Made by a program: the position numbers and the translations under genes
Source: a virus
Direction: 5' to 3' (one strand)
Length of the DNA stretch: 33,363 bases
IMG/VR virus record: IMGVR_UViG_3300031753_000027
Location: 1-33,363 of that record
The notes under the pieces: generated by a model
What the model saw: the letters and a program-made list of their open reading frames with translations, nothing else
What the model was told of the DNA's origin: nothing
Databases searched by the model: none
Part shown: positions 13,974-31,757 of the stretch, piece by piece
Layout of the letters: each line of letters begins with the position of its first letter
Position numbering within the stretch: position 1 is the stretch's first letter

Positions 13974-15299
13974 TTGCCCCAGGGCATCTCGCTATTTCAA
14001 AAACAACGTCGCCGACCGGGGCTATTTCTAGCAGTGGCACTTCTTCTCTCCGCGTCGCAGCTGCAGCTGTTAACCGAATGCCAGCGAAAATGGGGGTTTC
14101 GGTACCTCGAGAAGCTGCGAACACCGCAACACCCCAGCGCCGCGCTAGGGCAAGAGGTGCATGAGAAACAGCTTGGCCCATACCTAACGCAGGGAAAAGC
14201 CTTTGATTTCACGCGCCCGAGCGGCGAGATAGCACAAGCCTTAGTGCCGTTGCTTCCTCTGCCAGGTACGCCCGGGCTTCACTTAGAGCGCCGGTTCGAG
14301 ATCCCGTCCCCTTCCGGTAAGTTCAGTTACCAGGGATACATTGATCTCTACGCGCCCAATTCGACGTGCGTGCCTGGGATCGAACGAAGCTCGTTGAACG
14401 ATTTGTCTCCATCGCCCCTAATCGGAGACTTCAAGACGACGTCTAATCTCGCTTACGCTAAGACATCGGAAGGCTTGGCGACCGATATACAAGCCCAGCT
14501 ATACAGCTGGGCTCTTATGGTGGAAGAACGAGCCAACGAGATAGATCTCGTGTGGTTCTATACACGTACGCGCAAACCACATAAGGCGCAACGCGTGCAC
14601 CTGCACGTATACAAGTCGCACGTAGACGAGCAATTCGAGCGGATAGATGAAATAGGACGCCGCGTCGAGGCTATTAAAACAGCATCACCAGCGGTTGAAG
14701 ATCTCCCTCCTAACGTTCGCATGTGCGAGCAATACGGCGGCTGTCCCTACAGATACAAGTGTAATATCGCGCCGCCCGCCTTCGCGCGGGCGCAAGAGAA
14801 AGGAACGTCCATGAATAGTATGACCAATGATTTCCTGGCCAAACTTCGTAAGGCGACAGCACCCACCGCTGATGCCCATCCCGTGGCGCCACAGAGCCCG
14901 CCCCCTGCGGCAGTCAAACAGGTAGATATGTTCGAAAGCAGCGAGGTGCAGCTACCAGCGTGGGCTACCTCGCCGGTCGATCCCTTGACCGCGAAGAAGG
15001 CACCCGCACCTGTGGTAATGCCTGCAATCAACCCTCCAGAATCGGCTCTACCCCCAGCGCCTCCTACCGGCGTGGCCGCTCCCAGCGAGACGTCGGAAAC
15101 ACAGAAGAAGCGCGGACGTCCGCGGAAGGAGGCCACGATTACGGAATCAATACAGCAGGCACTAACTGAACCTGTCCACCCCCTGCCAGGCTCCTTCGAA
15201 GATTTCACGGAGAGGTTGCGCCGATGTGGTGTGAAAAAGCTTCAGATGCCCACTACGGAAGTAGACGGAATTACTTTTTGGTCGATTGAGCTAGCGTGA
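13974..15299 (+). CDS. Cas4/RecB-like PD-(D/E)XK nuclease with AT-hook tail
   Basis: 441 residues from a TTG at 13974 that follows AAGGAG by three bases. A GTG at 14034 is the alternative and would begin just before the conserved SASQLQLLTECQRKWGFRYL. The nuclease domain has H63 (GQEVHEKQ), IGDFKTT (catalytic Asp, Lys) and the QAQLYSWAL motif. Cys near the start plus MCEQYGGCPYRYKC make a four-Cys iron-sulfur signature as in Cas4/AddB. After about residue 275 comes a Pro/Ala-rich linker, an AT-hook (KKRGRPRKEA) and a small folded end (VDGITFWSIELA). An internal ATG at 14811 with a GAGAAAGGA site could make the tail alone. It likely processes DNA ends in recombination with the adjoining helicase. 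Confidence 0.8.
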   Translation: MPQGISLFQKQRRRPGLFLAVALLLSASQLQLLTECQRKWGFRYLEKLRTPQHPSAALGQEVHEKQLGPYLTQGKAFDFTRPSGEIAQALVPLLPLPGTPGLHLERRFEIPSPSGKFSYQGYIDLYAPNSTCVPGIERSSLNDLSPSPLIGDFKTTSNLAYAKTSEGLATDIQAQLYSWALMVEERANEIDLVWFYTRTRKPHKAQRVHLHVYKSHVDEQFERIDEIGRRVEAIKTASPAVEDLPPNVRMCEQYGGCPYRYKCNIAPPAFARAQEKGTSMNSMTNDFLAKLRKATAPTADAHPVAPQSPPPAAVKQVDMFESSEVQLPAWATSPVDPLTAKKAPAPVVMPAINPPESALPPAPPTGVAAPSETSETQKKRGRPRKEATITESIQQALTEPVHPLPGSFEDFTERLRRCGVKKLQMPTTEVDGITFWSIELA

Positions 15300-17833
15300 T
15301 GATCCCTGCCGTCGCGCACACGGCAGACTTTCAGCGCGTTCTGTCGCTCCCGCGGCGCGTATGGTCCGAGGAGGATCTCGAGAAACTGGCGCTCGATCTC
15401 ACATCTATATTGAAGACACCGGCGGGCACTATGCGCTTGAAGCACATTCAAGCGCTGGCGCTCCACGACGCCGGTGTCTACGGGGGGCTCTTCGGGCCGA
15501 TCGCCGTGGGAGGAGGTAAGACACTTCTGACACTCCTATTGCCGGCCGTGCTTGAATCTAGGAGACCGCTGCTTCTCCTGCCTGGCGGGCTAATAGAGAA
15601 AACGCAGAGAGAGCGAATCGAACTATCCAAGCAATGGCGCATCCCGTCGTCACTACGAGTGTTCTCGTATGACATGCTCGGAAGGGTAGAAGCAGAATCG
15701 GAGCTAGCTACGTATAAGCCAGATCTGATTATTGCGGACGAGTGCTTCACGGGTACGACCTTAGTGCGCACGGAGAATGGCCCGCGACGCATTTCTGACA
15801 TCGTCCCAGGACAATACGTATGGTCGCTCGGTATTGGTGGACCTGAGCTTAGAGAGGTATTGGGAGTAGGGGAGACACTGACAAATGAGCTGTATCGAAT
15901 ACACTTCGAAGGCAAGCACTACGATTGCACTGCCGGACATCCGTGGCTTACCCGGCAAGGTTGGAAGTGCTCGGCGGAGCTCAGTGTGGGTGATGAAGTC
16001 GTGCGAGACATGCGGCCAGAGTTTCAAGTCAAGGCCGTGCCAGAAACGAAGGTTCTGCTCGAGGAAATGCGTATACACGAATCCGAAGCTAGTGGAGGAC
16101 TGGTCCGAGAGAATGTCGCGGTCGAATCCTGGCCAATATCGGAAGATCAATGGAATGACACGACCGGAAGTCCGAGAGAAAGTATCCGCAACTCATCGCA
16201 AGAATGGTACCCGTCCGAAGATCCAAGGGGGCAATGGCCGAGGAATGACGATCCAGCAAGCGTCTTTACTCTCGGCTTTAGGGCATGGCTGGAAGGCCGA
16301 AAGGAGATTTCCTTGGGGCAGGTGCGCGATCCCGGCATGGCTAGTGGATATCTCTCACGAGAAAGCGAAAATTGCGGTCGAGGTGGACGGGAACAGTCAC
16401 AATACTCTGGCAGTAAGAGCGCGAGACGAGAGGAAAAGGCTATTTTTAGAGGGGTTGGGTTGGATCGTGTTGAGGGTATCGAACGACATGGTATCCGAGA
16501 AGTTGGTAGAAGTTGTCGAGTATATAACCTCCACGTTGAAGGAACGAACAACTTCATACTCGAACACGGACATGTAGTTCATAATTGTCACAAGCTTAAG
16601 AACAAGCGCGCCGCCGTGACCCGTCGCGTCGCTCGGTACATGCATGATCAGCCGCTCACCCATTTCTGCGGGGTGAGCGGAACGATCATGTCACGGTCCC
16701 TAAAGGACTTCGCACACATCCTGCTGTGGTGCCTGAAAACGTCGGCGCCCGTGCCCACGGCGTTAGAGGAAATTGAAGAATGGGCCGAGGCACTCGACGA
16801 AGGGGTCGACCCGTTGGCCCGGCGGAAACCAGGCGCCTTGCTCGAATTCTGCACCGAGGAGGAGAAGAAGGCGCGCCACCCTGCGAGAGTCGGTTTCTGC
16901 CGTCGTCTAACAGAGACACCCGGTGTCGTAGCGACCGTAGGTGAAGGAGAGCACGTTGATTGCAGCATCTATGTTCGTGCAAGCCGGCACAAAGTCTCAG
17001 CCGAAACGGAGCGCCATTTCGAGACATTGCGATCGGCATGGGAGACTCCCGATGGCTGGCAGCTTTCGCAAGCAGTAGACGTTTGGAGGCATGCACAGGA
17101 GCTTGCCTTGGGTCTTTTCTACGCGTGGGAACCTCGGCCACCTACGCCTTGGCTCGAATCGAGGCGTGATTGGAATCGGTTCGTTAGAGAGACCATCTCC
17201 CGCGGACGAACCTATGACTCGGAGCTTCACGTAGCCAACGCATGCGACGCGGGAAAGCTTCCGACCGAAGCGCTCGCCAAGTGGCGATCGATTCGAGACA
17301 CGTTCACTCCTAACGTTATCCCCGTGTGGTGCGACGATAGCGCGCTACACGCATGCGCCGATTGGATGAAAAGCCCTGGGCTCGTTTGGGTGGAGCACAG
17401 GTTCTTCGCGCAACGTCTCTCCGAGCTAACTGGCGTTCCCTACTACGAAGGGGGTGGTTTCGATGCCACTGGAAAGTACGTAGAAGACGCGCCGAGCAAC
17501 ACGTCCGCAATCGTAAGCTGTGATGCGAACAGAGAAGGCAAAAACCTACAGAAGCTCTGGCACCGCAATCTGCTCGTCTGCCCGCCCGCCTCTGCTGCGC
17601 ATTGGGAGCAACTCATTGCGCGTACGCACAGGCCCGGACAGACGGCAGACGAGGTGATCGTGGACATCCTGCTAGGGTGCCGTGAGAACTTCGACGCGTG
17701 CCAGAAAGCCCTAGAAGGCGCTCGCGCGATTCAAGAAGTGACGGGGAAATCTCAGAAGCTCTTACTGGCGGATATTGTCCTACCTAGTGAGAGCGAGGTC
17801 GATCGCATCGGCACGCCGCGATGGCGCAAATAA
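15299..17833 (+). CDS. SF2/SNF2-like DNA helicase interrupted by an intein
   Basis: 844 residues, 563 after splicing. The ATG overlaps the nuclease stop by one base (TGATG). Motif I is GPIAVGGGKT (71-75). The DECH box is split: DE is 147-148, the intein is residues 149-429, and CH is 430-431. Motif III is GVSGTIM. The second lobe ends in REGKNLQKLWHRNLLVCPP and IARTHRPGQ (motif VI near 774), the arginine-finger signature of SNF2-type enzymes. It should remodel or unwind DNA in replication or recombination with the Cas4-like nuclease. Activity requires splicing, because the ATP-hydrolysis motif is broken in the precursor. Confidence 0.88.
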   Translation: MIPAVAHTADFQRVLSLPRRVWSEEDLEKLALDLTSILKTPAGTMRLKHIQALALHDAGVYGGLFGPIAVGGGKTLLTLLLPAVLESRRPLLLLPGGLIEKTQRERIELSKQWRIPSSLRVFSYDMLGRVEAESELATYKPDLIIADECFTGTTLVRTENGPRRISDIVPGQYVWSLGIGGPELREVLGVGETLTNELYRIHFEGKHYDCTAGHPWLTRQGWKCSAELSVGDEVVRDMRPEFQVKAVPETKVLLEEMRIHESEASGGLVRENVAVESWPISEDQWNDTTGSPRESIRNSSQEWYPSEDPRGQWPRNDDPASVFTLGFRAWLEGRKEISLGQVRDPGMASGYLSRESENCGRGGREQSQYSGSKSARREEKAIFRGVGLDRVEGIERHGIREVGRSCRVYNLHVEGTNNFILEHGHVVHNCHKLKNKRAAVTRRVARYMHDQPLTHFCGVSGTIMSRSLKDFAHILLWCLKTSAPVPTALEEIEEWAEALDEGVDPLARRKPGALLEFCTEEEKKARHPARVGFCRRLTETPGVVATVGEGEHVDCSIYVRASRHKVSAETERHFETLRSAWETPDGWQLSQAVDVWRHAQELALGLFYAWEPRPPTPWLESRRDWNRFVRETISRGRTYDSELHVANACDAGKLPTEALAKWRSIRDTFTPNVIPVWCDDSALHACADWMKSPGLVWVEHRFFAQRLSELTGVPYYEGGGFDATGKYVEDAPSNTSAIVSCDANREGKNLQKLWHRNLLVCPPASAAHWEQLIARTHRPGQTADEVIVDILLGCRENFDACQKALEGARAIQEVTGKSQKLLLADIVLPSESEVDRIGTPRWRK
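15743..16585 (+). other. Intein in the helicase DECH box
   Basis: 281 residues. Block A begins CFTGTTLVRTENGPRRISDI with Cys1. Block B is YDCTAGHPWL with the TxxH pattern. Block F is CRVYNLHVEGTNNFILEHG, and block G is HVVHN followed by Cys of the C-extein. All splicing residues are intact. The stretch between blocks B and F (about 16020-16480) in the intein frame is Ser/Arg/Glu-rich and has no recognisable endonuclease. The endonuclease is in the +1 frame (15993-16577). Confidence 0.9.
15993..16577 (+). CDS. Homing endonuclease encoded out of frame inside the intein
   Basis: 194 residues, ATG at 15993, in the +1 frame relative to the helicase/intein. It starts with a zinc-finger-like CETCGQSFKSRPCQKRRFCS followed by RKC, then a NUMOD-like MTRPEVREKVSATHRKNG. 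A Vsr-like nuclease core follows: AIPAWLVDISHEKAKIAVEV, DGNSH, RARDERKRLFLEGLGWIVLR. The catalytic Asp, the EVDG-x-x-H and the D-x-x-R-x-x-x-L-x-x-x-GW pattern fit the EDxHD (I-Bth0305I/DUF559-like) homing nucleases. Its 5' end overlaps the end of the intein N-terminal domain (VGDEVV) and its 3' end overlaps block F. A GGAG lies 14 bases upstream. It should make the double-strand break for intein homing. Confidence 0.82.
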   Translation: MKSCETCGQSFKSRPCQKRRFCSRKCVYTNPKLVEDWSERMSRSNPGQYRKINGMTRPEVREKVSATHRKNGTRPKIQGGNGRGMTIQQASLLSALGHGWKAERRFPWGRCAIPAWLVDISHEKAKIAVEVDGNSHNTLAVRARDERKRLFLEGLGWIVLRVSNDMVSEKLVEVVEYITSTLKERTTSYSNTDM

Positions 17834-19584: not shown

Positions 19585-21677
19585 ACGTCGTAGCCTTCGA
19601 TACCGAAACGGCGCTCATTCGCCCGGCGCTTCAAGCCCCGCCGATGGTCTGTCTCACGTGGCAACGAACGGGGATGGAGCCTCGAATTGACCACGTGAAG
19701 GACGCGGAACCTAGGATTAGAGGCTGGTTAGAGGATCAGAACACATTACTAGTCGGCCACTATACTACCTATGACACGGCCGTCATATGTGCTCAGTTCC
19801 CACGGTTGACTCCACTGGTGTTTCGCGCCTATCGGGAAAGTCGGATCACTTGTACTAAAAAGCGACAGCAACTGTTAGATATCGCTGGAGGAGTCTTCCG
19901 CGGGCGTCTCGGAGAAAAGGGGCGATGGATTACACATGAATATAGCCTAGATGCTTTGTCCCGCCGTCTTCGAGGTATCGCCATGCAAAAAGACGGCTGG
20001 CGCCTGGAGTACGCAAACTTCATAGACGTGCCTATAGCCAAGTGGCCCGAAAGAGCGGCAGAGATTCAAGAGAAGGCTCGCATTCGCCGGGCTGAGTTAC
20101 CCCCCGATCCAGTTGACAAGAAGGATGCGCACTATGATGAAGTGAGGAATCTGAATGCGATTCTCGCAGATGAGCCGGAAGGCGCGATTAAGTACCCCCT
20201 TGACGACGCGACCGCAACCCTAGAGGTATATCTCGCGCAAGAGAAGCATGCGGACTATCTCAGAGACCAGTATAGACAATCATTTGCAGAGTTTGCACTC
20301 TACCTCTCCAGCGCCTGGGGGCTTCGAACTAATCCGGGAGGCGTAGAGTCGCTTTCCGTCGAAACGGAGAAAGCCCTCGCAGAGATAGAGCAAGATCTCG
20401 TCAAAGCAAACCTAGTTCGCGAAGACGGCACACGGGATACGAAGGCTGCAAAACGCCTTATGGCGAGCGTATGCCGAGCTAATGCCATCCCTATACGCCG
20501 AACGGAGGGCCATACAAAGCCTGACAAGCACGGTGTAGTTTGCGCTGATACCATAGGAGAAGCGTGCGAAGAGCACGTATGCCTAGACTCAGATGCGTGT
20601 GGTGCTGTATGTGGGATGGGCATTACGGCGGTAGATAGCGGCGAGATATGTCTGCTTGAGGGAGAAGAAGGGCAGCTACTTGGACAGTACTCGGAATTCT
20701 CTACCCTGAAGAAGGTTTTGTCGACGGACGTCGAAATGCTGAAACAGGGAACAACGTATCCTGTTCACACGCGATACGATATAGCAGAAACAGGCAGAAC
20801 GACGAGTTCCAAGCCAAACATTCAGAACCTGAGGCGACTGCCTGGGATCAGGGAAGCTTTCGTACCTAGGGACGGAATGGTATTCGCGCAGGCAGACTAT
20901 CCTCAGCTCGAACTTTACACCCTAGCTCAATGTTGTTTCTCATGGTTGGGTCACTCGAAGCTAGGAGAGGCATTGAACGCAGGTCTAGATCCTCACCTCG
21001 CCATGGCCGCAACGATTTTGGGTATCGATTTAGCGACGGCGAAAGCTCACAAGAAGCGCGAAGACGTACAGAATGCTCGACAGACGTCAAAGGTAGCTAA
21101 CTTTGGCTTCCCTGGAGGCCTAGGTCCCGCGAGCCTCATTCTATTTGCGCGTAAGACGTACGGCGTTACCTTGACTCAAGAGCAGGCCCGAACACTTAAA
21201 GAGCAATGGCTGGCGACATGGCCGGAGATGCGAGAGTATTTCGCTCGCGTCAATCAACTGTTCGGCGACGATTGTGAGCGCGCGTCGATCGAGACGCTGT
21301 TTACGGAACGCCACCGAGGTGGCGCCACCTATTGCGCGGCGTGTAACAACGGCTTTCAGGCGCTGGGCGCGGATTGCGCGAAGCGAGCATTGTGCCTCGT
21401 CGCAGAGGCGCAATATTGCGAACCTGGTTCTCCTCTCTATGGCACACGAACTGTCGCGTTCGTTCACGACGAAATCATCGTTGAATGTAATGACGACAGT
21501 AAGGCGCATGACGTCGCTTTAGAGTTAGCTCGTCTCATGGTTGATGGAGCCAACGAATACTTGAAAACTGTTCCTATAAGACTGTCAAATATGGAGCCCA
21601 CACTAATGCGAGTGTGGTCCAAGAAAGCAGAACAACGGTGGGATGTGAACAAGAGGTTAGTACCGTGGACGCCGTGA
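19581..21677 (+). CDS. Family A DNA polymerase with 3'-5' exonuclease domain
   Basis: 698 residues. The N-terminal exonuclease has D7 and E9 (VAFDTETAL), a second motif GHYTTYDTAVI and a third YPLDDATATLEVY. The polymerase has motif A ADYPQLELYTLA near 438, the O-helix RQTSKVANFGFPGG near 498 and motif C VHDEIIVE near 627. Compared with E. coli Pol I (KAINFGLIYG) the O-helix keeps K and F but has Gly-Gly where Ile-Tyr occurs. This variant is common among phage enzymes. It would replicate the phage genome. The ATG overlaps the preceding stop, and the stop overlaps the sigma gene start as GTGA. Confidence 0.93.
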   Translation: MNVVAFDTETALIRPALQAPPMVCLTWQRTGMEPRIDHVKDAEPRIRGWLEDQNTLLVGHYTTYDTAVICAQFPRLTPLVFRAYRESRITCTKKRQQLLDIAGGVFRGRLGEKGRWITHEYSLDALSRRLRGIAMQKDGWRLEYANFIDVPIAKWPERAAEIQEKARIRRAELPPDPVDKKDAHYDEVRNLNAILADEPEGAIKYPLDDATATLEVYLAQEKHADYLRDQYRQSFAEFALYLSSAWGLRTNPGGVESLSVETEKALAEIEQDLVKANLVREDGTRDTKAAKRLMASVCRANAIPIRRTEGHTKPDKHGVVCADTIGEACEEHVCLDSDACGAVCGMGITAVDSGEICLLEGEEGQLLGQYSEFSTLKKVLSTDVEMLKQGTTYPVHTRYDIAETGRTTSSKPNIQNLRRLPGIREAFVPRDGMVFAQADYPQLELYTLAQCCFSWLGHSKLGEALNAGLDPHLAMAATILGIDLATAKAHKKREDVQNARQTSKVANFGFPGGLGPASLILFARKTYGVTLTQEQARTLKEQWLATWPEMREYFARVNQLFGDDCERASIETLFTERHRGGATYCAACNNGFQALGADCAKRALCLVAEAQYCEPGSPLYGTRTVAFVHDEIIVECNDDSKAHDVALELARLMVDGANEYLKTVPIRLSNMEPTLMRVWSKKAEQRWDVNKRLVPWTP

Positions 21678-22234
21678 ATGCAGCCGATCATATAGGCCTG
21701 GTGTACCACGTCGCTAAGCGCTTCAATCGCCGAAACGAGAGCTTTGATGACCTAGTTCAGGCAGGTGTGTTTGGTCTAATCAAGGCGGCAGAATCCTACG
21801 ACCCGTCTCGAGGTTGTTTCTCTACCTTGGCGTGCTGTAAGATACGGACGTATATAGCTCGGTATTTACGAGACTGTACTAGGATAATTCATATCCCTCA
21901 CCACGTGCGATCTGGAGTAACGAAACCTGTAGAGTGTCCGGGAACCGTCGTCGCGAGCTTGGATGCCCCCATCGATGAGTTTTCAACTCTGCATGATCGC
22001 TGCGGGGACGGCACTCCTAGTTCTGAAGAGCAGATCGAAGAGGCGGAAATTTCTCGTCTGATTTGGGCGCACGTGGATAAGCTGAAAGAGCCATATAGAG
22101 AGGTCATTCATCTTAGATATCGGGACGGCATGACGTTACAGCAAATAGGCGATCGTTTCGGACGAACAAGAGAGAGGATGAGGCAAATAGAAGAGCAGGC
22201 TTTAGCAATGCTCCGAAAGAGGGTGAAGCTATGA
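21674..22234 (+). CDS. Sigma-70 family RNA polymerase sigma factor
   Basis: 186 residues if the GTG at 21674 (GTGA overlap with the polymerase stop) is used. A GTG at 21665, seven bases after AGAGGTT, is the alternative. Region 2 is DDLVQAGVFGLIKAAESYDP with SRGCFSTLACCKIRTYIARY. Region 4 is LRYRDGMTLQQIGDRFGRTR with ERMRQIEEQALAMLRKR. It has the full small-sigma architecture and should redirect host RNA polymerase to phage promoters. It sits between the polymerase and nucleotide-metabolism genes. The late minus-strand structural and lysis operons are plausible targets, which is inference. Confidence 0.9.
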   Translation: MNAADHIGLVYHVAKRFNRRNESFDDLVQAGVFGLIKAAESYDPSRGCFSTLACCKIRTYIARYLRDCTRIIHIPHHVRSGVTKPVECPGTVVASLDAPIDEFSTLHDRCGDGTPSSEEQIEEAEISRLIWAHVDKLKEPYREVIHLRYRDGMTLQQIGDRFGRTRERMRQIEEQALAMLRKRVKL

Positions 22235-24505: not shown

Positions 24506-25120
24506 ATGCCCACAGTACTAGCTGGCGAGAAAAACGCAAGCCCTCCCGAGTACATTTACCGACAGGCCCCTTCGGCAGATCGCCGCCGAATCCAAGCCGA
24601 GGTGATCGCGGCGTATAGGCCCATGGTCGCGCGCTCGGCGCGGCAAATGGTCCAAGCCCAATATTATAAGGAAGCAGCTCACGTCGGGGAGATTGGTCTT
24701 CTACTCGCATTAGAGCGCTATGACGCGGCGAGAGGATCATTCTGGGCGTTCGCCTCGCACTACGTGCGTAATGAGATAGAGATATGGTTGCGCGAAACTG
24801 TACACGCTCGACCACGTTCCCATCGATGTCTCGAAGGACAGGCTCAAGAGGAGCGTGACTCGCAGCGTTGGTCAGTGTCTTCGGACAAGATGCAAATCGC
24901 CAGTGAGGTGCCCTCACCTGAGGAGCTAGTTCGAGAGAAAGAGCTACGAGGGCTGTTAGGGAAGTTCTTGTCTGAGCTTTCCGATGCCGAGCAGCACCTC
25001 TTGTTATGCGCTAAGAGAACAACGAATGATGGAGGTGTAGAAGCCGGAAATAATCTCAGGTCTCGGGGCTATATCTCTCTTATGAAACGCGCGACGGCGT
25101 TTCTCAAAGGAGGTAAGTGA
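24506..25120 (+). CDS. Second sigma-like factor
   Basis: 204 residues. A sigma region 2-like core is clear: HVGEIGLLLALERYDAARGS and FWAFASHYVRNEIEIWLRE, parallel to the first sigma factor's region 2 (QAGVFGLIKAAESYDPSRG). Before it is MVARSARQMVQAQY as in region 1.2/2.1. The C-terminal part (LGKFLSELSDAEQHLLLCAK, then GNNLRSRGYISLMKRATAFL) occupies the place of region 4, but the HTH is weak, so it may be altered or degenerate. It follows its own leader hairpin and begins a new translational series of small genes. Confidence 0.75.
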   Translation: MPTVLAGEKNASPPEYIYRQAPSADRRRIQAEVIAAYRPMVARSARQMVQAQYYKEAAHVGEIGLLLALERYDAARGSFWAFASHYVRNEIEIWLRETVHARPRSHRCLEGQAQEERDSQRWSVSSDKMQIASEVPSPEELVREKELRGLLGKFLSELSDAEQHLLLCAKRTTNDGGVEAGNNLRSRGYISLMKRATAFLKGGK

Positions 25121-25461: not shown

Positions 25462-25626
25462 ATGTTTCAGAGAGTCTTTCTATTAGGTCAATTGACCTGC
25501 GTTCTGTTCAATCTAGGCGTCTTCGCCTGGGAAGCATCACGCGGAAACGTCGGAATGGCTGTGGTCAATTTCACGGCTGCTTCGTCGTGTGGCTTCGCTG
25601 CTTGGCTGGATTGGGTGGGAATATGA
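25462..25626 (+). CDS. Small two-pass membrane protein B
   Basis: 54 residues, GAGGGAG before the ATG. Two hydrophobic helices: MFQRVFLLGQLTCVLFNLGV and AVVNFTAASSCGFAAWLDW, with a Glu/Arg turn between. Same length and layout as the gene just upstream, with similar AVVN and ALVN segments. Its stop overlaps the methyltransferase ATG as ATGA, so it is co-translated with it. No holin role is implied, because the lysis cluster is elsewhere. Confidence 0.6.
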   Translation: MFQRVFLLGQLTCVLFNLGVFAWEASRGNVGMAVVNFTAASSCGFAAWLDWVGI

Positions 25627-27413
25627 GCGCCTATTCTATCACCCAAGGAGACGTCGTCGAAGTCCTTCGAGGGTTTCAGGATAACTCGTTCGACGCGCTA
25701 TTTTGCGATCCACCGTACGGCTTTTCGTTTATGGGCAAGGCGTGGGATTACGACGTACCATCCGTAGAGTGCTGGGCTGAGTGCTTGAGAGTTCTCAAGC
25801 CAGGCGCGCCCTTGCTCGCGTTCGGCGGTGCTAGAACGTATCACCGCTTGGCGTGTGCCATCGAGGACGCCGGGTTCGAGCTACGGGATTGTTTGATGTG
25901 GCTCTACGGAAAGGGATTTCCAAAGAGTCAAAACATCTCACTGGCCATTGACAAGTCGGCCGGTGCGACGCGAGAGGTCGTAGGTACGCGTGTTCTTACC
26001 GGGAATGCCGCCATCTCTACGAAGGAGAAAGGAGGGACCTATGGTATACAAGTAGGAAGCGTCCCACCGAAGACGGTGAACGTAACGGAGCCGGCCACAG
26101 AGCTTGCGCGAGCTTGGGAGGGATATGGTACCGCGCTAAAGCCGGCATATGAGCCTGTCGTACTAGCCCGCAAACCGCTAGACGGCACGATGGCACAAAA
26201 CGTCGAGCGGTGGGGGGTTGGAGGATTGGCGATTGATGCGTGTCGACTTGATTGGATCGGCAAGCCTTCCGGGTGGTCGAAGACAGGTAGCGAGGCGAGC
26301 GAGAACGTCGCGATGTCTGGGGCGAACTACGCCCGCGAGGCGAAGCCGGACGCCGATGGCCGCTGGCCCGCGAACCTCCTCTTAGACGAAGACGCTGCAG
26401 CCCTCCTAGACGCCGAAGTCGGTGGGAAAGGGTTTCTTAATCTCAAGCCGGCACATGAGCCTGTCGTACTAGCCCGCAAACCGCTAGACGGCACGATGGC
26501 GCAAAACGTCGAGCGGTGGGGGGTTGGAGGATTGGCGATTGATGCGTGCAGAGTAGGCAGTGAAGGCGGCGGGACTCATTGCAGCAACAGAGACGCACAA
26601 GGACGGTGTCTCGGACACAGAGATAGGAACGGTCGTCTCTGGGAGACGATTCACTCGGCCGAAAAGAAAGAAAAGTTAGTGAGACCTAGTAAAACTCTCG
26701 ATGATAAAAACGTATTTGGCCCAGGATTAGGAGCTGACACACAAGTAGAGCCTGATGGACGCTGGCCCGCGAACCTGATCCTCGACGAAGACGCTGCAGC
26801 CCTCATAGACGCTGAAGTAGGTAATCGCCCATCGACCCCGTTTCGAGAGAATACCGCCACGGGCAACGTGCTGCCCTTGAAGAAGAGAACGGCCGGGGGG
26901 TACTCGGACGGAGGAGGGCCGAGCCGCTTTTTTTATACCACTAAGGTGAGCACCAAAGAGCGAGAGGCAGGGTGCGAATATCTCCCGCTTCGTAGCGCCG
27001 GCGAGGTTCCGGAGCGGGACGATAAGTGTAAAGATTGTGTTGGTCGCGGATGGATTAACGATGGAGGCGTCCTAAGTAAGGATCCAGGCTTCGAGTGTCC
27101 GACGTGTCTAGGCAACGGTCGAGTTCGGACGGCCGGCCTTGACGATCCTCTCGCCGGGGCGGGCCGCAGGGGCGGCGCTCGCAATAGTCATCCGACGTTA
27201 AAGCCCATCTCCCTAACTACGTACCTCGCGCGACTAATCATGCCTCCAACCTCGGGTGTCATTCTGATCCCGTTCGCGGGCTCAGGTTCCGAGATGATCG
27301 GAGCCATAAAGGCTGGATGGTCTGGCGTGTTCGGTATCGAGAGAGAAGATGAATACGTGAGGATTGCGAGGGCGAGGCTCGCGTATTGGTGCCCGGGAAG
27401 TGAGGCGGCGTGA
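25623..27413 (+). CDS. DNA methyltransferase (N6-adenine/N4-cytosine type) with internal duplication
   Basis: 596 residues from the ATG at 25623 (ATGA overlap, GGTGGGA upstream). The catalytic DPPYG motif is at 29-33 and the AdoMet-binding FAGSG motif is near 552, the motif order IV then I of beta-class enzymes. The middle is duplicated: a block KPAYEPVVLARKPLDGTMAQ continuing to GGLAIDACR occurs twice, 102 codons apart, as does DGRWPANL followed by LDEDAAAL. Between the second copy and motif I is a DnaJ-type pair of CxxCxGxG zinc motifs (CKDCVGRG, CPTCLGNG). No restriction endonuclease is nearby, so it is an orphan enzyme likely protecting phage DNA or marking it. Confidence 0.88.
   Translation: MSAYSITQGDVVEVLRGFQDNSFDALFCDPPYGFSFMGKAWDYDVPSVECWAECLRVLKPGAPLLAFGGARTYHRLACAIEDAGFELRDCLMWLYGKGFPKSQNISLAIDKSAGATREVVGTRVLTGNAAISTKEKGGTYGIQVGSVPPKTVNVTEPATELARAWEGYGTALKPAYEPVVLARKPLDGTMAQNVERWGVGGLAIDACRLDWIGKPSGWSKTGSEASENVAMSGANYAREAKPDADGRWPANLLLDEDAAALLDAEVGGKGFLNLKPAHEPVVLARKPLDGTMAQNVERWGVGGLAIDACRVGSEGGGTHCSNRDAQGRCLGHRDRNGRLWETIHSAEKKEKLVRPSKTLDDKNVFGPGLGADTQVEPDGRWPANLILDEDAAALIDAEVGNRPSTPFRENTATGNVLPLKKRTAGGYSDGGGPSRFFYTTKVSTKEREAGCEYLPLRSAGEVPERDDKCKDCVGRGWINDGGVLSKDPGFECPTCLGNGRVRTAGLDDPLAGAGRRGGARNSHPTLKPISLTTYLARLIMPPTSGVILIPFAGSGSEMIGAIKAGWSGVFGIEREDEYVRIARARLAYWCPGSEAA
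26139..26242 (+). repeat. Methyltransferase internal repeat, copy 1
   Basis: 104 bp that recurs at 26445-26548 with only two mismatches, both transitions. The offset is 306 bp, exactly 102 codons, so the reading frame is kept. The synonymous positions are also conserved, which points to a recent duplication. Confidence 0.97.
26445..26548 (+). repeat. Methyltransferase internal repeat, copy 2
   Basis: Second copy of the 104-bp repeat. A further related pair lies downstream (about 26355-26424 and 26754-26823), more diverged, showing the duplicated unit is at least 290 bp with a variable centre. Confidence 0.95.
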
Positions 27414-27589
27414 TGAAAGATCGCGAAAAAGAATTATGTCGCGTAAGCCGTAAGGAGTTACTGAACATTATTGCTAACCTTATTTGTGACAACAATCGAT
27501 TGTCAGATCAGCTTACAGTTGTGCAAGAAAAGTGCAGTAGTTTGCTAGAAGAGTTTCGGGAAAGTAGGAAATCATGTCAAACGAGCTAA
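27413..27589 (+). CDS. Small coiled-coil protein
   Basis: 58 residues, ATGA-type overlap with the methyltransferase stop and 16-nt overlap with the next gene. The sequence MKDREKELCRVSRKELLNII, NNRLSDQLTVVQEKCSSLLE forms a long amphipathic helix with heptad spacing, so it is probably a dimeric coiled coil. Base composition is more AT-rich than its neighbours. No family recognised. Confidence 0.55.
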   Translation: MKDREKELCRVSRKELLNIIANLICDNNRLSDQLTVVQEKCSSLLEEFRESRKSCQTS

Positions 27590-27915
27590 AGGAAATCTCT
27601 TTGGATGGTGTGAAGTATCTCAGGGCCGATTGTGTTGGAGAAGCCCCCAAGCCCGGAAAGAGAGCGGTAGTCGTGCTCGACCGTGGTTGGATTGTAGCAG
27701 GTGACGTGTCCACATATGAGGACGAGCATGGACAGACAAGGCTGAGGATCACTCGATCTGTCCATGTTCGTAGCTGGACGGGAATAGGCTTCGACGGTAT
27801 GATAGCGGCTCCAAAGAGCGATAAAGTCATCATACAGCCGATGTCAAATGGCTTCGATTGCCCTGGGGATTCTGAGTTGTTCCGTGTGCCTGTTGACGAT
27901 AATTGGGGACTGTAG
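27574..27915 (+). CDS. Hypothetical beta-rich phage protein (DUF6948-like by eye)
   Basis: 113 residues. Strand-rich pattern: KRAVVVLDRGWIVAGDV, TRLRITRSVHVRSWTGIGFD, then a Pro-rich end with ELFRVPVDDNWGL. The order 'V-x-R-x(n)-G-x-V-x-G', then 'W-x-G-x(3)-IA' resembles a small phage domain known as DUF6948, though the match is only by memory and pattern. It precedes the Gly/Tyr repeat genes by three bases. Function unknown. Confidence 0.5.
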   Translation: MSNELKEISLDGVKYLRADCVGEAPKPGKRAVVVLDRGWIVAGDVSTYEDEHGQTRLRITRSVHVRSWTGIGFDGMIAAPKSDKVIIQPMSNGFDCPGDSELFRVPVDDNWGL

Positions 27916-27918
27916 AAG

Positions 27919-28122
27919 ATGCTGAGACCTATCGGCAACGGCTACGGCTACGGCTACGGCTACGGCTACGGCTACGGCTACGGCTACGGCTACGGCTACG
28001 GCAACGGCTACGGCAACGGCTACGGCTACGGCAACGGCTACGGCAACGGCTACGGCAACGGCTACGGCGACGGCTACGGCGACGGCACTATAACTAGACA
28101 CTTGAGACGTCGAAGATGCTGA
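27919..28122 (+). CDS. Gly-Tyr/Asn repeat protein 1
   Basis: 67 residues. A short lead MLRPIG is followed by about 45 residues of GYG/GNG/GDG dipeptides encoded by the GGCTAC/GGCAAC hexamer repeat, then a basic tail TRHLRRRRC. It starts three bases after the preceding stop, and its stop overlaps the next gene, which has the same lead and tail. The conserved ends around a variable repeat in two copies support real coding. Ribosome site is weak (GTAGAAG). Likely disordered or fibrous; function unknown. Confidence 0.6.
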   Translation: MLRPIGNGYGYGYGYGYGYGYGYGYGYGNGYGNGYGYGNGYGNGYGNGYGDGYGDGTITRHLRRRRC

Positions 28123-28352
28123 GACCTATCGGCTACGGCAACGGCTACGGCAACGGCAACGGCTACGGCGCCGGCGACGGCGACGGCGACGGCTACGGCA
28201 ATGGCTCCGGCAACGGCTACGGTAACGGCTACGGTAACGGCTACGGCAATGGCTACGGCTCCGGCTCCGGCAACGGCAACGGCTACGGCGACGGCTACGG
28301 CAACGGCTACGGCAACTGCTGCGGCTACGGCTACGGCGACGGCACTGTAACT
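27933..28352 (+). repeat. Hexanucleotide repeat tracts (GGCTAC/GGCAAC)
   Basis: Two tracts, about 27933-28086 and 28130-28346, of near-perfect GGCTAC with GGCAAC and GGCGAC variants. Period 6 keeps the frame of the repeat genes. On the reverse strand the same tracts are open as Ala-Val runs, which I treat as shadows. Such tracts should change length by slippage. Confidence 0.95.
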
Positions 28353-28379
28353 CGACACTCGAGACGTCGAAGAACGTAA
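28116..28379 (+). CDS. Gly-Tyr/Asn repeat protein 2
   Basis: 87 residues. Same lead (MLRPIG) and tail (GDGTVTRHSRRRRT) as the upstream gene but a longer and more varied repeat with Asn, Asp, Ser, Ala and Cys among the Gly/Tyr. It overlaps the first by 7 nt, so the pair arose by tandem duplication and has diverged by repeat unit change. The basic tail could bind nucleic acid or capsid DNA. No homologue is known to me. Confidence 0.6.
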   Translation: MLRPIGYGNGYGNGNGYGAGDGDGDGYGNGSGNGYGNGYGNGYGNGYGSGSGNGNGYGDGYGNGYGNCCGYGYGDGTVTRHSRRRRT

Positions 28380-30700: not shown

Positions 30701-30990
30701 TGGCCACACCATCCAAGCCCTTGCACGCTCGCAGGTGTAGTAGCTGCGCACGTGAGCGGCGAGCCATTCGGCATACGAACTAGTCGCGTGTTCTCTACGG
30801 CTTGAAGCACCTCTGCGCAATCGCTAGCCGTACCCGCCTCGCAACCCGCCGCGGCCAATCTTGTACAAGCCTCGGCGCACGGGTTAGGGCCATCGGCCGA
30901 CGCATCCGAAGCATCCGGAGGCATAGGCGCGGGGCCCGGTGTTACGTGGCACCCTGTCATAAGAAAAATCGCGACTAATGCGGTACGCAT
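30697..30990 (-). CDS. Small predicted lipoprotein of the lysis cluster
   Basis: 97 residues from the ATG at 30990 with a GGAGG upstream. Signal MRTALVAIFLMTGC ends in lipobox LMTGC. After it comes a Pro/Asp/Ala-rich linker (PGPAPMPPDASDASADGPNP), then CAEACTRLAAAGCEAG and further Cys (SDCAEVL, TCAATT, GWC). The paired-Cys pattern after an Asp-rich linker recalls Myxococcota lipoproteins. It could be an Rz1-like spanin component, since it lies between the peptidase and the endolysin, but no coiled-coil Rz partner is seen. Confidence 0.65.
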   Translation of the reverse strand: MRTALVAIFLMTGCHVTPGPAPMPPDASDASADGPNPCAEACTRLAAAGCEAGTASDCAEVLQAVENTRLVRMPNGSPLTCAATTPASVQGLGWCGQ

Positions 30991-31757
30991 GGCCACGCCT
31001 CCCATGCCGCATCGAGCCAATCTTGGCCGACGAGGCACTTGCCCTTGTCACACCAGCCCTCGCCCCAACTGTTCGTTAGGGTGAATGTGTAATTACCCGC
31101 AGCGTTGATCGTGTAGCCAGAGAGGTACACCGCGTGCCCTCCGCCTTGCGTGTCGGACATGTTCGGTTTGCCTGCCACTTGACCAGCCTGAAGATTTTCG
31201 AACGTCGTATCGCAGAAGAACGCGACTACGACCGGAAAACCTAGTGAGATTGCTTGTGCTAGCGTTGCCGGCTGCTGCAAATCAGACTTGTACGGTCCGA
31301 GAATGGGTCGCGAGTTAGCTACCTCTAGATCGGCAATTGACGGCTCCGTAAGCACGTTAGAAGCGTCGCAGTCCGAATTCCTGCCTTCTACTGAAGTGCC
31401 CATGGGGCACACACCGAATTCTCGAACCGCTTGGAAGACATCCGCGAGCATGGCCCCGCTATCTGAAAGCGGAGGCAATGTCCCCCCGGCTATAGTAGCT
31501 ACTCCTCGCTCTAGTCCGCGAGTAATCGCATAGATGCTTTTAGGGCTAGGGACCCATGTCAGCGTCCCTTCATAAGCCGTGTAGATAGCTGCGGCTGTTG
31601 CATGAGCCGTACAAGCGCCGGTAGGACCCTGGTCTAAAATCTGCGGCTGATATTTGCTCAGGTCAGCCGATGGAGGAATCGAACCTACGTCCGGAGCCAG
31701 TAACCTGTAGGCCAGTTTATGCGCGTCAGATGGCTTACAGCCTTTGCCCCGAATCAC
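30975..31757 (-). CDS. Papain-like C1 cysteine peptidase
   Basis: 260 residues. Active-site residues are all present in order: Q43 (oxyanion) and C49 in LDQGPTGACTAHA, H208 in GGGHAVYLSGY and N229 in LTNSWGEGW. The preceding segment PPSADLSKYQPQILDQG is the usual approach to the mature papain domain, so there is little or no propeptide. There is no signal peptide. It may reach its target through holin lesions or be a virion enzyme. Complete papain-like enzymes are uncommon in phages. A role in degrading host envelope protein or in processing tail proteins is possible. The ATG overlaps the upstream gene's stop. Confidence 0.9.
   Translation of the reverse strand: MIRGKGCKPSDAHKLAYRLLAPDVGSIPPSADLSKYQPQILDQGPTGACTAHATAAAIYTAYEGTLTWVPSPKSIYAITRGLERGVATIAGGTLPPLSDSGAMLADVFQAVREFGVCPMGTSVEGRNSDCDASNVLTEPSIADLEVANSRPILGPYKSDLQQPATLAQAISLGFPVVVAFFCDTTFENLQAGQVAGKPNMSDTQGGGHAVYLSGYTINAAGNYTFTLTNSWGEGWCDKGKCLVGQDWLDAAWEAWPCVPH

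Follow-up and report, generated by a model that had tools for sequence, protein, structure and literature searches.

The two tandem reading frames of glycine-alternating repeats found in the DNA analysed here (hereafter the window, all 33,363 bases of virus record IMGVR_UViG_3300031753_000027) are a duplication of a single gene, the second member of a two-gene module that is widespread in phages. The first gene of this module, gene A (27574..27915, + strand), encodes a 113-aa partner with a predicted Sm/LSm-like fold, which has 334 relatives on viral contigs. The second, gene B, encodes a short low-complexity protein with an array of X-Gly units, in which X is mostly Tyr, Asn or Asp. We consider it almost certain that A and B form a conserved protein-coding module. 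B is only occasionally duplicated in tandem as it is in the window; five other loci also show this (L010, L115, L156, L178, and L137).

Tandem copies of gene B in the window

The first copy, B1 (27919..28122, +), encodes a 67-aa (Tyr/Asn/Asp-Gly)n protein and its ATG lies 3 nt past the gene A stop (TAG AAG ATG), so that the two genes are separated with no overlap. The second copy, B2 (28116..28379, +), encodes an 87-aa (Tyr/Asn/Asp/Ser-Gly)n protein and shares its first 7 nt (ATGCTGA) with the end of B1. Both copies begin with the same 18-nt lead ATGCTGAGACCTATCGGC, encoding MLRPIG (27919..27936, +, in B1, with an exact copy at 28116..28133, +, in B2), which occurs twice in the window vs 0.01 occurrences expected from shuffles. 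Both also end in a basic tail followed by the stop codon: TITRHLRRRRC in B1 (28087..28122, +) and TVTRHSRRRRT in B2 (28344..28379, +). The two overlapping frames with a common lead and a basic tail had been described in the original prediction, and the ORF calls place them exactly there. Tandem Repeats Finder reports one hexanucleotide array of the GGC NAC type (27933..28343, +; score 402, 67.7 copies of CGGCTA), which comprises the cores of B1 and B2 and is broken by the B1 tail and the B2 lead.

The array of the window is also open in further frames on both strands, so that being open is no evidence of coding by itself; what establishes the Gly-X frame is its retention in relatives. Of 59 complete, non-identical B genes that were picked solely via their upstream gene, 56 keep a P[IVA]G lead and 51 a basic tail. 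With lead, tail and frame kept, and with most relatives showing a start/stop overlap with the conserved upstream gene, the B genes are very probably translated, as had been proposed. One further contig, IMGVR_UViG_3300031715_000015, carries gene A, B1, and B2 identical to those of the window. A near-identity search of reference phages gave no match, and Rfam had none in the window. The Pfam matches of B to TrAA12, KRTAP, and keratin were rejected as low-complexity and below the cut-off, and the only NCBIfam match, for B2, was of the low-complexity kind and also below the cut-off, with window gene A and four other A/DUF6948 proteins matching nothing.

Residue composition was derived from 80 distinct gene A-family arrays (redundant copies removed, 2450 X positions). 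Tyr occupies 46% of X, Asn 23%, Asp 21%, and His 0.6%; within NAY codons, which account for most X positions, the first base of X is T in 1133, A in 560, G in 508, and C in 15 cases, so that His hardly occurs even though a single transition would turn Tyr into it. The mean entropy at position 1 of the X codon is 1.40 bits vs 0.18 and 0.30 bits at the two synonymous third positions, with position 1 more varied than both of them in 73 of the 74 arrays of at least 15 units. While NAC-GGC is the dominant unit in most arrays, another unit dominates in 7 of 74, and the array of cthkR962 uses mostly GGT/TAT-type codons with an unchanged dipeptide pattern. Differing DNA units combined with constraint at the residue level make a DNA-level function of the repeat unlikely, and this codon pattern indicates that the B array is selected as protein.

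The arrays are hypervariable between fixed ends. Differing arrays with equal lead and tail are found beside identical gene A (L028/L029/L030/L032 and L092/L093), and differing arrays also beside gene A copies that are 98.4% or more identical (L037/L039/L040/L043). Gene B ranges from 162 to 270 nt among eight Pectobacterium-type phage isolates; in Taid, Amona, and Abuela, whose gene A is 99.7% identical, it measures 258, 204, and 222 nt. The array gene of six further Barba isolates has 210 nt in five and 240 nt in Barba19A, and Barba isolates of equal array length differ by Tyr/Asn exchange. The expectation that repeat length should vary through slippage is supported by the Pectobacterium-type phages and by the arrays that differ beside identical gene A. 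A diversity-generating retroelement seems an unlikely source of the variation, which is confined to the first codon position and almost never puts C in it; adenine-directed mutagenesis leaves a pattern unlike this C-poor variation.

Several other features of the window were recorded. Inside an 845-aa ORF (15296-17833, +) there is an insert resembling an intein (Intein_splicing, E = 3.6e-6, under the cut-off), and a DUF559-type nuclease ORF (15885-16577, +; E = 3.8e-11) is nested within the same ORF in another frame. Two separate sigma-70-like genes (21614-22234 and 24506-25120, both +) are present in this single phage record. A 21-nt tandem repeat (1097-1168) corresponds to the Pro-Gly-Met-rich C-terminus of a 635-aa ORF (1067-2974, -), and a papain-family cysteine protease gene (30975-31757, -; E = 3.6e-8) lies near a lysozyme gene. 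A DNA methyltransferase gene (25587-27413, +) contains the internal stretch EPVVLARKPLDGTMAQNVERWGVGGLAIDACR twice.

Pairing of gene B with gene A and DUF6948

A search of IMG/VR with a degenerate pattern of the lead plus two X-Gly units returned 17 stretches, one of which is the twin contig described above. The 16 others all encode M[FL]RPIG(XG)n. The pattern selects for the lead and not for any upstream gene; a full upstream ORF whose conserved ending, of the PV..xWG[LM] type, meets the B start codon or stops just short of it is present in 15 of the 16, and the remaining one, cut by its contig end (L006), shows the same ending. Starting from gene A instead, an alignment of 12 proteins gave 334 IMG/VR relatives, of which the best 80 (59 distinct proteins) were kept. 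An (X-Gly)n gene lies directly 3' of gene A on 78 of these best 80 viral contigs, 75 being recognized by script and three by reading (L029, L073, and L086); L091 and L099 have no adjacent B. All eight GTDB bacterial or MAG contigs with gene A likewise have B directly downstream (Phenylobacterium, Planctomycetota, Burkholderiales, Dechloromonas, a beta-proteobacterium, Hydrogenedentota, an FCB-group bacterium, and one other bacterium). In its overall interpretation the original prediction was partly borne out: very probable translation and length variation stand, while the two-gene module and the upstream partner had been overlooked.

In 58 of 74 gene A-family loci the start codon of B and the stop codon of A share bases, in the form TGATG or TAATG, an arrangement commonly taken as translational coupling. 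A programmed frameshift joining A to B was considered and rejected, because the frame of B relative to A varies, being +2 in 66 of 74 loci, 0 in six, and +1 in two. The +2 frame is common because of the TGATG/ATGA-type overlaps, and A and B are treated here as two proteins. One candidate A-B fusion ORF was encountered (L277), which is cut at the contig end and may be read through.

The pair is also present in all 19 distinct reference phage records examined, plus the six further Barba isolates. These records are Rheinheimera phage Barba21A (gp18 and gp17), Eggerthella phage PMBT5 (gp37 and gp38), Rhodobacter phage RcapNL (gp47 and gp46), ctGfd272 (array annotated as "lamprin"), cthkR962, Iodobacter phage PhiPLPE (gp84 and an unannotated array ORF), Chlorobiaceae phage CV-1-33 (gene 26 and an array annotated in another frame), Vibrio phage IKEMa6-1, ct8d5349 (with a degenerate array), two faecal scaffolds, and eight Pectobacterium-type phages. 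In the public annotation of cthkR962 (L113) and CV-1-33 (L321) the arrays are given in a wrong frame, as MVMVMV and MAMAMA, which hides the B gene.

Window gene A matches no Pfam family at E = 0.1 and is therefore not a DUF6948 protein by profile. The connection to DUF6948 (PF22253) came through array-linked genes: many upstream proteins in the repeat-only scan described below belong to this family, and all 10 tested array-linked upstream proteins score 36 to 109 bits, above the curated DUF6948 cut-off of 27 bits. Six DUF6948 proteins gave 268 viral relatives, and among the best 80 of these an (X-Gly)n gene lies downstream in 79 loci, L281 being the single one without an adjacent B. Arrays of the DUF6948 branch have mostly Ser, Tyr, and Asp at X, and most of the DUF6948-linked B proteins seen are without a basic tail, so the tail is not general. 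A direct hhalign comparison of the window family with DUF6948 is weak (E = 6.5e-4, probability only 28%). The window-family HMM matches RcapNL and ctGfd272 proteins (E = 4e-6 and 8e-6), and the same two proteins are matched by the DUF6948 HMM at about 1.5e-4; against DUF6948, RcapNL gp47 has E = 1.3e-4, below the cut-off. Judged from these sequence comparisons, gene A is homologous to DUF6948 through intermediates, as a distant relative. A DUF6948 search of five GTDB genomes with gene A gave no match, and its controls were without a match too. In phrog_18306 (242 positions), window B2 matches positions 63-137 (E = 0.0038) and DUF6948 proteins match 151-237 (E = 2e-8 and 6e-7), which suggests, as a hint only, that this family represents a fused array and DUF6948 protein.

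The association was also approached from the repeat side, by scanning IMG/VR for the repeat alone with flanks ignored, which gave at least 80 loci with at least 85 array ORFs. When the upstream genes were tested with the HMMs of gene A and DUF6948, a gene A or DUF6948 gene was found directly upstream on the same strand of 55 of the 68 testable arrays, among the matches listed. The 85 arrays listed divide into these 55, seven with such a gene elsewhere within 3 kb, 17 too near the end of a contig or locus for a decision, and six with none. Among the matches listed, 56 A/DUF6948 HMM matches fall in the upstream zone of ~45 kb vs six in the rest of the 680 kb. Among the arrays that have no partner next to them are long proteins of structural appearance (L128 and L186) and MKYPKG-type arrays (L137 and L188), and arrays fused to other domains or without A were seen in these four loci and in L151.

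Two composite forms of the array protein were noticed on the DUF6948 side. In L118, L129, L157, L158, L182, and L184 a short GACIDGV-type domain precedes the X-Gly array in the same ORF, with DUF6948 upstream (Pfam-scored in L118 and L158, and assigned by sequence resemblance in L129, L157, L182, and L184). In L136, L144, L168, L324, and L325 arrays 3' of DUF6948 run into a C-terminal globular domain of the FNGDKVYIIDDIPT type, which we take to be DUF7666.

Predicted fold of gene A

The AlphaFold2 model of gene A, made with 52 proteins, has a pLDDT of 91.2. In a Foldseek search against the PDB almost all of its first 50 matches are Sm/LSm chains (best E = 1.2e-2, prob = 1.00), and VIA-align gives Z = 7.8 with an rmsd of 2.3 over 63 aligned residues. 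Among the top matches is 3by7, a metagenomic phage-like Sm protein (Z = 7.3). An independent model of DUF6948 (64 proteins, pLDDT 95.3) behaves in the same way: its first 50 Foldseek matches are Sm/LSm chains or chains of spliceosome/snRNP entries (best E = 1.9e-3, prob = 1.00), and structural alignment reaches Z = 8.2 with an rmsd of 1.8 over 68 residues. These Foldseek E-values are above 1e-3, and a Z near 8 may mean merely a common small-barrel arrangement. Among viral predicted structures, gene A matches DUF6948 (E = 3.5e-4) and, more weakly, cyanophage proteins, one of which is named Sm-like.

Taken together, the models make an Sm-like fold of gene A very likely. In Pfam searches the LSM profile (PF01423) matches neither gene A nor the tested DUF6948 proteins, and it has no match in the window at E = 1 with positive controls; for this reason A is called Sm-like by its predicted fold and not a proven Sm protein. 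The canonical uracil-contact motif of Sm proteins, taken from general knowledge, is not conserved in A by eye. Compared with Sm, LSm, and Hfq proteins including 3by7, gene A is alike in its predicted small beta barrel, and differs in having no LSM profile match or recognized Sm motifs and in a predicted helix between strands 3 and 4. Closest in layout are DUF6948 genes with downstream Gly-rich genes, which share with the window pair the two-gene order, the predicted fold and an alternating X-Gly partner; unlike them, window gene A has no Pfam match, and the DUF6948 partners use Ser/Tyr/Asp at X and mostly lack the basic tail.

Possible roles of the pair

Our best explanation combines the predicted fold of A with the composition of B. 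Gene A would provide a small Sm/LSm-type beta-barrel protein, and the overlapping or adjoining gene B a low-complexity protein in which every second residue is Gly and those between are Tyr, Asn, or Asp or, in modules of the DUF6948 type, Ser. The two may be made in step and bind each other; a physical complex of this kind is moderately probable. The Tyr-rich array, together with the Arg tail in the gene A branch, could act as multivalent stickers, A would bind RNA or, less likely, DNA, and in the early phase of infection the pair would come together as an RNA-protein assembly or a condensate. Such an assembly, considered alone, we regard as a possibility that leans toward the doubtful. The account as a whole, a co-translated Sm-like A and a sticker B forming an RNA-protein assembly in early infection, is plausible yet tentative.

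The eukaryotic proteins SmD1, SmB, and Lsm4 are Sm/LSm proteins with low-complexity tails, RG or Q/N-rich; like the phage pair with its predicted Sm-like barrel, they combine an Sm barrel with low-complexity, aggregation-prone sequence; unlike in these proteins, the phage low-complexity part is a separate overlapping gene of (Y/N/D/S)G composition. FUS-like sticker domains are Gly-rich chains with Tyr at regular intervals and Arg in other places, features in which B resembles them. B differs from them in being strictly dipeptide-periodic, about 40-160 aa long and phage-encoded, and in that its phase separation is putative. The regular aromatic stickers in a flexible spacer that mark phase-separating proteins are present in B, with Tyr at 46% of X.

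The genomic surroundings were surveyed with 150 neighbouring proteins drawn from 238 clusters. The 25 commonest families comprise primase, helicase, HNH and other endonucleases, exonucleases, Erf, DNA methyltransferases, replication initiation, and one unnamed family, with no structural family among them; each was matched by just two or three proteins, so this is a tendency only. In the window the module is flanked by a DNA methyltransferase and by an HTH/excisionase-integrase pair. In PMBT5 the pair is part of the replication module, with the gene for the single-stranded DNA-binding protein on one side and that for the replication initiator/helicase loader on the other (PMC9394477).

Other roles fit parts of this evidence. 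A function in host takeover or counter-defence, in which the pair binds a host protein or a defence RNA and an arms race diversifies the array, is unlikely. A small early-region gene pair with broad phylogenetic spread, whose arrays are replaced beside near-identical gene A, would suit such a function, but slippage and recombination alone could give the array variability, the composition of X is held constant and not diversified, and no defence link was seen. Action on DNA is rather unlikely as well. An Hfq-like Sm barrel with a sticker could gather or shield replicating phage DNA as a replication or recombination compartment, and the neighbouring replication, recombination, and methylation genes, the basic Arg tail of B and the DNA-binding mesh of the original prediction all point that way; the core of B is acidic, however, with Asp at 21% of X, and the tail is not a general feature.

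We judge it quite improbable that B serves in the virion, as an adhesin or at the tail tip, in the manner of the glycine-rich gp38 of T-even phages, with hypervariability setting receptor range and A serving as chaperone or attachment partner. B shares with these polyglycine-sandwich adhesins a glycine-rich, hypervariable core, held in B between fixed ends, PMBT5 gp38 is annotated as "adsorption protein", and a tail fibre gene adjoins the pair on the opposite strand in Pectobacterium phages. Hypervariable segments are described for the polyglycine domain of S16 gp38 (PMC6851490). The same paper gives gp38-type proteins, which are part of the tail fibre tip, Gly runs, a gp37-binding N-terminal helical domain with a Trp module, and an adjoining fibre gene, and this is not the pattern of B: its alternating X-Gly array without Gly runs or helical Trp module stands among early genes, between a short lead and a short tail, and is preceded by gene A and not by a fibre gene. 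A is moreover predicted to fold like Sm and not like a tail chaperone, and the commonest neighbour families belong to DNA metabolism or are unnamed. Six PMBT5 virion proteins identified by mass spectrometry (PMC9394477) include neither gp37 nor gp38, although the titre was low and the arrays have no tryptic sites. Finally, it is extremely improbable that the array is a non-coding, slippage-prone hexamer repeat with incidental open frames, as the several open frames on both strands might suggest, given the conserved lead, tail, and frame of B, the fixed upstream gene, the exclusion of His from X, and the single dipeptide pattern written in different DNA units.

DUF6948 as a name, Sm-like phage proteins and low-complexity proteins are already known. 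We believe that the near-obligate pairing of A with B and the Sm-like prediction for DUF6948 are new. A full-text literature search, with most subscription journals and preprints outside its scope, found no paper on DUF6948 or DUF7666, and within the same limits the portions consulted of the literature on phage Sm-like or glycine-rich phage proteins hold no description of an A-B pair. The main text of the Barba phage paper (PMC6715854) does not mention glycine, repeat, or tandem.

With these results a Pfam family of unknown function acquires a fold prediction and a gene that nearly always accompanies it, and overlooked low-complexity phage ORFs, some of them annotated as "lamprin", as "adsorption protein" or in a wrong frame, become one system. 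Because cultured phages carry the pair, expression, interaction, RNA binding, and condensates are directly testable. A broader and more doubtful proposal is that DUF6948 and its relatives are a phage-wide Sm-like family in which the low-complexity tail is encoded apart, by an overlapping and hypervariable gene, the two jointly building a ribonucleoprotein body in infected bacteria. Such a body would mirror, divided over two genes, the combination of Sm and low-complexity parts in eukaryotic RNA granules. If such RNA-protein bodies do form, bacterial viruses would possess Sm-plus-sticker scaffolds of their own, and sibling phages would be natural array-length variants of them.
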